IMG/VR virus record: IMGVR_UViG_3300030107_001155
Location: 1-42,168 of that record
Source: a virus
Length of the DNA stretch: 42,168 bases
Reading direction: 5' to 3' (one strand)
The notes under the pieces are model-generated. The model ran no database searches, was not told the origin of the DNA, and worked only from the letters and a program-made list of their open reading frames with translations. The translations under genes and the position numbers were made by a program. Below, one piece after another: positions 21,117 to 39,804 of the stretch (its first letter is position 1; each line of letters opens with the position of its first letter).

Positions 21117-22205
21117 TTATGCGTTCACACCTACAAAACGTTTGGAAGCTCCTGTAATACCTGCAGGATAAAAATAGTTTTGATGATTTAACAACTCAAC
21201 TCTCATTCTTTTTACACCTTCCAGATAATCTTTTTCAGCTAACTGAGCACCAGCCATGTTTGCTCTCATCATGTACGCATAGTATTTAGCTCTGTTAACT
21301 ACGATGTCATTAAACCTATCAGGCAATGTAGGACTATCGTTATGTGCAGATAAATCTGTATGTGTTATAAAATAATCATAAGAAACAGAATACGTGCTCT
21401 TTTCTGGTATAGGACTAAAACCTATATTACTGTTATCTTGTGTACGATAAACATATCGAGGTAAACCAAACTGATCTGAACTTGTTGTGCTAAGATCACG
21501 TTCACTGTGGTTATCAAGCCACTCATTGTAAGAAAGATATGTTAAACGTTCTGGTTGAATATTTTCAGTAACTTCTACACTGCCTACGTCATAGTTGCTG
21601 GAAGCTGTATTAGCAAAACCTATGTATATGGTTGTAGCAGTTGCAGTGAATGTAGTTATATTATACTCTCCATCACCTGCATTGTCAACAGTTAATGTTG
21701 TACTAGATATTTCTGTACCACCAGAACTTGTACCTATTTTTAGAGTTATGTCTCCACCAAAAGTACGTGTTCTAACAACATAGTCTTTACCGTTTATTGT
21801 ACTGATAGATTGTGTAGCTTCAGCAGCATTTAGACGTAGAGCACCATCTGCTGAAGCTTTAGTGTAGAAAGGAGATCCTGATACTGTTGTCCAATTACTA
21901 ATGTTGTTTGTAAACGAACCATTTGTAATTAAATCAGTTGGTGTTAATACAAAACTATTAAAGTTTATCTTACGAGCATCAGAAGGATAACCATACGTTC
22001 TTTGACCTGCTGTCAAAACTTGTTCTTTGGCTTTATACAAAAATGACCATTCTACTTCTGAATTGTAAATATCGTTAATTCCTTTGTTAACGACATTCTT
22101 CACCATAGATTGCACACCTCTCGATGAACTAAAATTTGAAGAAGTTAACTCAACTTCATTTAATTCATTTAAAACTCTGTTCGTTAAGGTCAAGTATGTT
22201 GCCAT
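21117..22205 (-). CDS. Head-tail adaptor/tail tubular protein A-like, with inserted carbohydrate-binding-like domain, 362 aa
   Basis: The N-terminal 85 residues (LTNRVLNELNEVEL, then VNKGINDIYNSEVEWSFLYK) and the C-terminal helices (RFNDIVVNRAKYYAYMMRAN) match the T7 gp11/P22 gp4-like adaptor class that forms a ring under the portal. Between them, residues about 90-214 form a different module: it opens LITNGSFTNNISNWTTVSG and closes TTIYIGFANTASSNYDVGSV, the usual start and end of CBM4/9-type galactose-binding-like beta sandwiches. Such an insertion would decorate the outside of the neck. The adaptor role is a good inference from order (capsid to adaptor to hub). Confidence 0.72.
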   Translation of the reverse strand: MATYLTLTNRVLNELNEVELTSSNFSSSRGVQSMVKNVVNKGINDIYNSEVEWSFLYKAKEQVLTAGQRTYGYPSDARKINFNSFVLTPTDLITNGSFTNNISNWTTVSGSPFYTKASADGALRLNAAEATQSISTINGKDYVVRTRTFGGDITLKIGTSSGGTEISSTTLTVDNAGDGEYNITTFTATATTIYIGFANTASSNYDVGSVEVTENIQPERLTYLSYNEWLDNHSERDLSTTSSDQFGLPRYVYRTQDNSNIGFSPIPEKSTYSVSYDYFITHTDLSAHNDSPTLPDRFNDIVVNRAKYYAYMMRANMAGAQLAEKDYLEGVKRMRVELLNHQNYFYPAGITGASKRFVGVNA

Positions 22206-38155: not shown

Positions 38156-38504
38156 GATCTGGTGTTAAACTTTCTTTTCTACGTGCCATAACATCTACGT
38201 CTTTGTATTCTTTTACATCGTGACCTAAGTCTTTATTCATTTTCTTTATTTCATCTTCTGTAAAACATCCAAACTTTACGATACCTTTTACAACCTTTTT
38301 AAAAGTTGTCATAATAGAACGATAGAACATGTATTCGTTTTCCTGAAGAGACACCATACATTCTTGCTTTGTCTGATAACTTGCTGAAAGCATCTGAATC
38401 CATCCTTGAGGTGGTACACCTTGAATATTTGTAGCTATCATGGCTGCTATGAAGAACTTAGTTGTAGCTTGTTGTGCTGCTACTAGATACAACAGCATCA
38501 TCAT
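38145..38504 (-). CDS. Hypothetical protein, possible exported/membrane N-terminus, 119 aa
   Basis: Three ATGs in a row open the gene (first at 38504), with GAGG a few bases before. The first 25 residues are hydrophobic (LLYLVAAQQATTKFFIAAMI) and could be a signal or anchor; the remainder is soluble, with cysteines (QECMVSL, KFGCFTEDE) and a Lys-rich end. The 5' 47 bases overlap the acidic leader gene. I do not recognise the family. As the second gene of the late transcript it might act at the membrane or in head formation. Confidence 0.55.
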   Translation of the reverse strand: MMMLLYLVAAQQATTKFFIAAMIATNIQGVPPQGWIQMLSASYQTKQECMVSLQENEYMFYRSIMTTFKKVVKGIVKFGCFTEDEIKKMNKDLGHDVKEYKDVDVMARRKESLTPDHAT

Positions 38505-38805
38505 CTTCCTCTTCTTCGTCTAAGTCTTCTTCTTCTTCCTCTTCATCATCTTCTTCATCTTCATCATCATCTTCTTGATCATCATCTTCAATCTCTTCAA
38601 TTTCTTCTTCATCTTCATCATCCTCGTCATCGTGAGCAACTTGAAGTTCTTTGAGTTTCTTTTCCAAGATGAGCATAGCTTCTACAGCACCTGTTATCTT
38701 GAGAGAACGAGCTTGTAGTTCTCTTTGTTGCTGGAGTAAATCTTCTTTCATCTTGAGAATTGTAGGAGTATCGAGAAGTGCTTCTTGTTGTTGTTGTTGT
38801 GCCAT
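38458..38805 (-). CDS. Acidic Asp/Glu-tract protein, first gene of the late block, 115 aa
   Basis: The N-terminal half is a Gln/Leu-rich helix (KMKEDLLQQQRELQARSLKI, VEAMLILEKKLKELQ). The C-terminal half (residues about 58-104) is almost only Asp and Glu, with short breaks, and it ends SSSSTTSYN. AAGGAA stands nine bases before the start. It is the first gene after the leftward promoter and its long leader. Highly acidic tracts may mimic DNA, bind basic phage proteins such as those at 36.4-37.4 kb, or inhibit a host DNA-binding protein; none can be proved. The low complexity makes homology hard to detect. Confidence 0.65.
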   Translation of the reverse strand: MAQQQQQEALLDTPTILKMKEDLLQQQRELQARSLKITGAVEAMLILEKKLKELQVAHDDEDDEDEEEIEEIEDDDQEDDDEDEEDDEEEEEEDLDEEEEDDDAVVSSSSTTSYN

Positions 38806-39080
38806 TGTAGTCTATTCCTTGTATGTTATATGATTATAGTAAGAGAAAAAGAGATACATATGTACGTACTTTTATGTCGAGTATTACGTTTGTATATTAT
38901 CTCAACCTTGTGTGTAAGGAAAGTCTACGATTTACGAACTACGTTCTTTTACGAGTACAAGAAAAATGCTCAATAGACACTAATCAAGTATGTACGTTTG
39001 TAGGTAAATTCTCTTTTTCTCTTTAATGAGGTAAAGTATAGTATATGTGTATTGCGTGTTAACTTCGACTACCTATTTTA
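38806..39080 (-). other. Long untranslated leader of the late transcript
   Basis: About 335 bases separate the leftward promoter start (near 39142) from the first late gene. Apart from a possible short leader peptide (39081-39131), I see no gene. Short palindromes occur (ACATATGT, GTACGTAC near 38858-38870), and a perfect TATAAT lies at 38833-38838 without a -35 partner. No terminator is visible, so the leader may serve RNA-based control or host factor binding. Confidence 0.5.
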
Positions 39081-39148: not shown

Positions 39149-39176
39149 ATTATAGTGCAATAATGTAACATGTCAA
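39149..39176 (-). promoter_or_regulatory. Leftward sigma70 promoter (late block)
   Basis: On the minus strand, a perfect TTGACA (39171-39176) is followed after 16 bases by a perfect TATAAT (39149-39154). The expected start is near 39142. It points to the whole 34-kb block of packaging, structural and lysis genes. The bases 39177-39206, upstream of it, are an A/T tract suited to an UP element shared with the rightward promoter. Confidence 0.85.
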
Positions 39177-39206: not shown

Positions 39207-39234
39207 TTGACAAGATGCTGTAGGGGTGTATAAT
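39207..39234 (+). promoter_or_regulatory. Rightward sigma70 promoter of the small RNA
   Basis: On the plus strand, TTGACA (39207-39212) is followed by a 16-base spacer and TATAAT (39229-39234). It is the mirror of the leftward promoter, 30 bases away. The start would be near 39241. No gene follows on this strand; instead a short structured RNA and a terminator do. Perfect -35 and -10 elements predict strong activity with host RNA polymerase. Confidence 0.85.
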
Positions 39235-39240
39235 ATAGAC

Positions 39241-39354
39241 ACAGTCTTCATATAAGAGAAGAATAAGAGATCAATATGATTCCTCTGAAGACAATATAAC
39301 TCATAGCACCGTAGAGCTACTACATAGTTAAAGTAGTCTACGGTGTATTTTTAT
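39241..39354 (+). ncRNA. Candidate phage small RNA, about 110 nt, two hairpins
   Basis: This short region has its own consensus promoter and terminator and holds no convincing reading frame. The 5' half folds as a bulged stem: GTCTTCA (39244-39250) with TGAAGAC (39286-39292), GAG with CTC (39256-39258/39283-39285) and GAAT with ATTC (39261-39264/39279-39282), around a 14-base loop (AAGAGATCAATATG). The 3' half is the terminator hairpin. The region between (about 39293-39306) is single-stranded and AT-rich. The arrangement is typical of regulatory RNAs. The target and function are unknown. Confidence 0.65.
39307..39354 (+). terminator. Intrinsic terminator of the small RNA
   Basis: CACCGTAGA (39307-39315) pairs perfectly with TCTACGGTG (39337-39345), and the inner CTAC pairs with GTAG with one bulged G. 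The stem is followed at once by TATTTTTATG. The other direction lacks a T-run, so it works on the plus strand. The next gene on this strand does not exist within the window. Confidence 0.8.
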
Positions 39355-39734
39355 GTATAAAGATGATTACTATGACTACAATACTACTCCAGAATAGTCA
39401 TCAAAGCCTAGATGTACTCTGAAAAATAAAAAAATAGAGCAGCTAGTAGTATAGAGGGGTACATAGGGGAGTGGCCCTATATGGGGTACAAAAGAAGAAC
39501 ACACGCACAAAGTCCTCTAAGAAAATTCTGTATAAATTGTATTGACTATATAAGCAACAGAACAATTACTGTGCAGTATACTTAGCCAACAACATAACGT
39601 AGGATATTTTTTTTAATTCTACTGACAAAAATGACTGTAGAGGGCAGGGAGGCGTAACTTAAACCCAGCACTCTATAGCTATCTTGTCCAATGTTATCAG
39701 CATCTAACTATATTATCTATATCGATTGAGTAGG
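39355..39734. other. Non-coding region with two imperfect hairpins
   Basis: This stretch of 380 bases holds no gene I can support. It contains a GC-rich island (39455-39490) with ATAGGG/CCCTAT (39463-39468/39475-39480) and GGGGTAC repeated at 39456 and 39484. A longer imperfect hairpin spans 39635-39678: eight pairs, two one-by-one mismatches, then GC and GGG/CCC pairs. Neither has a T-run in the proper place. Candidate uses are an origin or a regulator-binding site. Functions are not known. Confidence 0.45.
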
Positions 39735-39769
39735 CAAAAAAGAACCCTCTGCATTTACGCTACAGAGGG
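39735..39769 (-). terminator. Intrinsic terminator of the right-end minus operon
   Basis: On the minus strand CCCTCTG (39763-39769) pairs with CAGAGGG (39745-39751) with an 11-base loop, followed by TTCTTTTTTG. It is a strong Rho-independent terminator 35 bases after the 61-aa gene. It isolates the operon from the control region on its left. Confidence 0.85.
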
Positions 39770-39804
39770 CTAAGTTTAGGGAGGTATTCAGTGTATCTAT
39801 TTAG

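Follow-up and report, generated by a model that had tools for sequence, protein, structure and literature searches.

The OOP RNA of phage lambda is a short transcript with its own promoter and is antisense to cII (its role is reviewed in PMC12197685), while PreS of lambda and VpdS of VP882 are trans-acting phage sRNAs that bind Hfq and have demonstrated targets or effects (PMC12197685). In the sea, HMO-2011-type phages have been described as both widespread and dominant (PMC9038755). Neither promoters nor non-coding RNA turned up in a term search of that paper, and the literature searched yielded neither a promoter or RNA map for phages of this type nor any match for pelagiphage sRNAs.

Here, we analyzed a virus record of 42,168 bases (IMGVR_UViG_3300030107_001155), the whole of which is referred to as the window. 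Its terminase large subunit is closest to those of Pelagibacter phage HTVC115P, Roseobacter phage CRP-2 and Puniceispirillum phage HMO-2011, and we therefore assign the window to the HMO-2011-type phages. It resembles these phages (PMC9038755) in its terminase genes and gene modules, and the isolates checked in carrying a divergent promoter pair. Because a search of the genome collection with TerS returned a single weak match, to Macrococcus, no host was inferred. Next to the promoter pair lies a predicted short RNA that, like OOP, has its own promoter, terminates early and adjoins a regulatory hub; unlike OOP, it is antisense to no annotated gene. With PreS and VpdS it shares a small size and the lack of translation, as judged from sequence alone. 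We regard these as resemblances of layout. In position, promoter and alignable 5′ end, the predicted RNA resembles the lipoprotein units of sister phages (L005, L006, L021, L156 and others), but the coding sequence of these units is missing in the window and in three sister contigs (L002, L003 and L004).

Divergent promoters upstream of the terminase genes

The perfect TTGACA/TATAAT promoter with a 16-base spacer that the original prediction had placed at this locus was confirmed (Table 1). We also identified a second perfect promoter, overlooked in that prediction, which is read on the opposite strand from 39176 to 39149 and stands back to back with the first. The window contains three perfect promoters with 15–18-nt spacers, compared with 0.115 per dinucleotide shuffle. 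The third, TTGACA-N17-TATAAT at 21688–21660 on the minus strand, lies within the coding sequence of the ORF at 21117–22205.

Scanning the viral collection for the promoter-pair pattern yielded at least 136 blocks in the loci examined, about 50 of them distinct, as the loci overlap and the blocks are not all independent. Among these, 95 blocks have a terminase gene within 6 kb, which is transcribed away from the pair in every case (95/95). The pair lies directly upstream of TerS in isolate HTVC115P, where both promoters are perfect, and is present in isolates HTVC033P and HTVC103P, where one of the promoters deviates at a single position. The window shows the same arrangement, with back-to-back consensus promoters upstream of TerS and the terminase leading away. 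Judged by these contigs and isolates, the predicted divergent promoter pair upstream of the terminase is a trait shared across the family of HMO-2011-type marine phages, and the conserved hub offers a concrete site for studying how early and late transcription are separated in them.

To the right of the hub, all credible genes of the window, from 39805 to the end, lie on the minus strand and head toward the hub. A 50-kb relative has the same layout: its hub-directed cluster ends near the hub, and replication genes diverge from the far end of that cluster. The genes past the rightward unit also head toward the hub in most of the relatives read.

Table 1. Features of the promoter hub and its surroundings in the window.
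Feature	Position	Strand	Basis
Hairpin in the leftward (late) leader, conserved loop containing TTCGTAA	38924–38947	−	Covariation analysis
Consensus promoter of the leftward late (terminase/structural) operon, divergent from the rightward one	39149–39176	−	Perfect match
Rightward (outward) consensus promoter, TTGACA-N16-TATAAT	39207–39234	+	12/12 consensus positions; kept in relatives
Short inverted repeat AGAC-ACA-GTCT, centred on the predicted start	39237–39247		Operator-like; inverted-repeat count
Predicted terminated transcript, ~113 nt, without credible ORF	39241–39353	+	Promoter/terminator/ORF analysis
First stem-loop, GTCTTCA/TGAAGAC plus weak inner helices	39244–39293	+	Not above chance, z −1.18
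AAGAG + ATG (39276–39278) + 7-codon frame MIPLKTI	39265–39299	+	Aligns near the lipoprotein start of relatives; ATG → ATA in L004
Intrinsic terminator, 15-bp stem with one bulge, U-rich tail	39306–39353	+	−21.1 kcal/mol, z −5.44
Conserved intergenic DNA element: A-tract, GAGCAGCTAGTAGTATA, G-runs, AGTGGCCC	39421–39490		Similarity to relatives restarts here
Terminator-like hairpin closing the leftward gene cluster that heads toward the hub	39743–39771	−	Sequence scan

A predicted terminated transcript without a credible ORF

Transcription from the rightward promoter is predicted to start at 39241. The original prediction had also described an excellent intrinsic terminator soon after the promoter, with no credible gene in between, and both points held. 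The terminator stem (39306–39346) carries a 10-nt loop and is followed by AUUUUUA, and none of 200 shuffles was equally good. No ORF of at least 40 aa was found in 39235–39353; the sole start codon preceded by a Shine-Dalgarno-like AAGAG (AAGAG-N6-ATG) opens the 7-codon frame MIPLKTI (39276–39299), which loses its ATG in L004. As far as sequence goes, the locus thus has the own promoter and intrinsic terminator of a stand-alone sRNA and is devoid of a translated ORF. A short, terminated and essentially untranslated transcript is well supported on these grounds, and the ~113-nt RNA from 39241 very probably exists.

The whole predicted RNA folds with a z-score of −4.15, which is due to the terminator, given the respective values of −5.44 and −1.18 for the terminator and the first stem. 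In the latter, GTCTTCA (39244–39250) pairs with TGAAGAC (39287–39293), and an inner GAAT/ATTC helix closes the AAGAGATCAATATG loop. The bulged stem-loop with this loop, as originally described, is present in the minimum-energy fold, but it is no better than chance: 31 of 200 shuffles of the 60-nt first-stem part were equally good, and the GAAT/ATTC helix is dropped from the centroid. The AAGAGATCAATATG loop has the appearance of a vestigial ribosome-binding site with its start codon, and the 5′ end of the window's unit can be aligned with the lipoprotein units up to the start-codon region.

No similar DNA was found in 50,697 phage records, and an Rfam search with the predicted RNA returned no families at the gathering score and sub-threshold matches only when relaxed. 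A strict search of viral contigs for the terminator hairpin recovered only the three sister contigs, to which a broader promoter/start-region pattern added L005. The ORF-less RNA is found only in the window and these three contigs, which are near-identical (97–100% TerS identity). Comparing the four copies, we found 2 variable positions within the 113 nt of the RNA and 6 within the 96 nt that directly follow, a difference that is not significant (Fisher p = 0.15). Both stems are invariant across these near-identical copies, and the two variable sites of the RNA, one of which accounts for the lost ATG, fall outside the centroid stem pairs. The low variation inside the RNA leans, non-significantly, toward constraint on the RNA itself and is compatible with it. 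Of the dedicated regulatory RNA proposed at the outset, the short, terminated, untranslated design stands, whereas its retention for the sake of its own fold is not borne out by the first stem.

A lipoprotein-like ORF in related phages

In all readable relatives with 73–94% TerS identity, the rightward promoter is followed by an ORF of 49–68 aa whose product has a hydrophobic stretch and a lipobox-like Cys, in most cases along with an AFS-P-V/I-EL-like motif (L005, L006, L008, L010, L011, L019, L021, L023, L103, L156, L158, L160 and L163). Contig L009 stops within the ORF, and the ORF of L012 has diverged and lacks the motif. The comparison of L019 with L160 gave a dN of 0.135 and a dS of 0.504, which places the ORF under constraint at the protein level; closer pairs are too similar to tell. 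Family searches with the ORF gave weak matches only, including an Rz-like spanin (E 0.024).

The ORF, and with it a lipoprotein mRNA, is absent only in the window, L002, L003 and L004, and similarity between the window and its relatives restarts at ~39422, just past the position of the ORF. Since the nearest sister, L005 (94% TerS identity), has the ORF, the simplest explanation is that the window's group lost it; by parsimony, it would have been lost rather than gained several times. The idea of a stand-alone sRNA retains its promoter/terminator layout, but this form is confined to four near-identical contigs, and in the next relatives the promoter drives the lipoprotein-like ORF. A small coding unit turning into a short untranslated RNA, as suggested by the window, is a possible route of origin for phage sRNAs.

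Outward flanks across the phage family

Using a terminator definition widened so that the window's own hairpin qualifies, we found that 18 of 48 distinct outward flanks have an intrinsic terminator no farther than 330 nt away; shuffles gave 4.3 and the leftward side 4. Several lipoprotein units of the sister phages have a terminator after the ORF. On the outward side of the isolated pelagiphage HTVC115P (L146), an intrinsic terminator comes after the promoter at +64 to +88, marking a further candidate short RNA. In most of the distant relatives read, the outward region contains no clear promoter-adjacent ORF and meets oppositely directed genes. Being mostly non-coding and varied, these regions suggest conservation of the outward promoter but not of what it produces.

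Inverted repeats with arms of at least 4 bp, located up to 18 nt past the −10 box, occur at 51% of 51 distinct outward starts; the corresponding shares were 11% for shuffles and 5% for the leftward side. The outward repeats comprise 13 different arm sequences, and many are centred on the expected start site. Symmetry that is kept despite differing sequence is what one would expect if the repeats were operators bound by different repressors. A hairpin at the 5′ end of the RNA was considered as the meaning of the repeat and rejected, because the left arm would remain untranscribed if transcription starts ~7 bases past the −10 box; for the same reason, an operator-like DNA site would fit the repeat better.

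Farther downstream, the conserved intergenic element is possibly a packaging or replication site; its order of A-tract, GAGCAGCTAG-like sequence, G-run and AGTGGCCC recurs in 50 of 75 distinct outward flanks when a loose pattern is applied. A wider reading of the family, which we consider quite unlikely, is that HMO-2011-type phages carry positionally conserved but fast-evolving short outward RNAs that are started at a palindromic, operator-like site, often terminated early and active in the early/late switch. The window's RNA would then be a member of this group and the lipoprotein units its coding derivatives.

Possible roles of the rightward transcript

We consider it reasonably likely that the rightward unit, descended from a lipoprotein unit, gives rise to a short untranslated transcript at the conserved promoter hub and that it probably acts in cis. 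The unit sits between its promoter and the end of the hub-directed gene cluster; its coding sequence is gone in the window and the three sisters, while the promoter and the strong terminator remain, together with a 5′ region that keeps what looks like a remnant of the ribosome-binding site and start codon. A host sigma-70-type polymerase would start near 39241 and stop near 39353, producing the ~113-nt untranslated RNA. In cis, the opposing transcription and the terminator may insulate the late promoter from the incoming leftward cluster, although this cluster already has a terminator of its own (39771–39743), which counts against such a role. Alternatively, the rightward promoter may be retained as one half of the pair, with the RNA as a by-product.

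An RNA acting in trans, through pairing of the first-stem loop or the linker with a phage or host mRNA, is possible, though unlikely. The order of promoter and terminator is of the stand-alone sRNA type and the two variable sites avoid the centroid stems, but the first stem is not above chance and the RNA is known from four near-identical contigs only. Among sites close to annotated gene starts, the strongest is one at which the purine-rich segment 39251–39286 would pair with the divergent late-operon leader (~38841–38863, −20.6 kcal/mol); this pairing is matched by 15% of shuffled loops, and the antisense strand has equally strong pairing sites. Pairing between the 12-nt linker and the start region of gene 429–881 outperformed 60 shuffles, the linker being one of several segments tried and the result uncorrected for multiple tests. 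Overall, target prediction for the RNA gave no pairing convincingly above controls.

The remaining readings call for translation, read-through or a local DNA process. A short mRNA for the 7-residue peptide MIPLKTI, serving as a leader or signal peptide, would agree with the AAGAG six bases ahead of an ATG positioned like the lipoprotein start; we judge it extremely improbable, as this ATG reads ATA in L004 and no plus-strand gene follows for a leader peptide to control. The orientation of the genes from 39805 onward, all on the other strand, likewise makes it very improbable that the unit is a leader or attenuator of a rightward gene downstream, read when termination is suppressed, even though the outward promoter can face rightward genes elsewhere (e.g., L213 and L217). 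Outward transcription might also serve replication priming, or packaging at the 39421–39490 element, which recurs past the outward promoter near terminase genes; this appears very improbable, given that the window's terminator ends transcription ahead of the element and that the pattern defining its recurrence is loose.

The late-operon leader

The hairpin in the leader of the leftward operon consists of a covarying stem around a constant 12-nt loop, with 5 of 6 pairs changing on both sides among 18 distinct sequences. Its covariation score was 0.455, compared with 0.212 in shuffles (0/500) and at most 0.204 when slid. The hairpin has no Rfam match. The model derived from it matches the window with an E-value of 2.4e-6, the window sequence being part of the model, and gives a strong match in three large relatives, though not in the isolates tested. 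The first ORF of the leftward operon (38458–38805, minus strand) has family matches that are weak and low-complexity-like only, and its product contains a highly acidic stretch of Asp and Glu.
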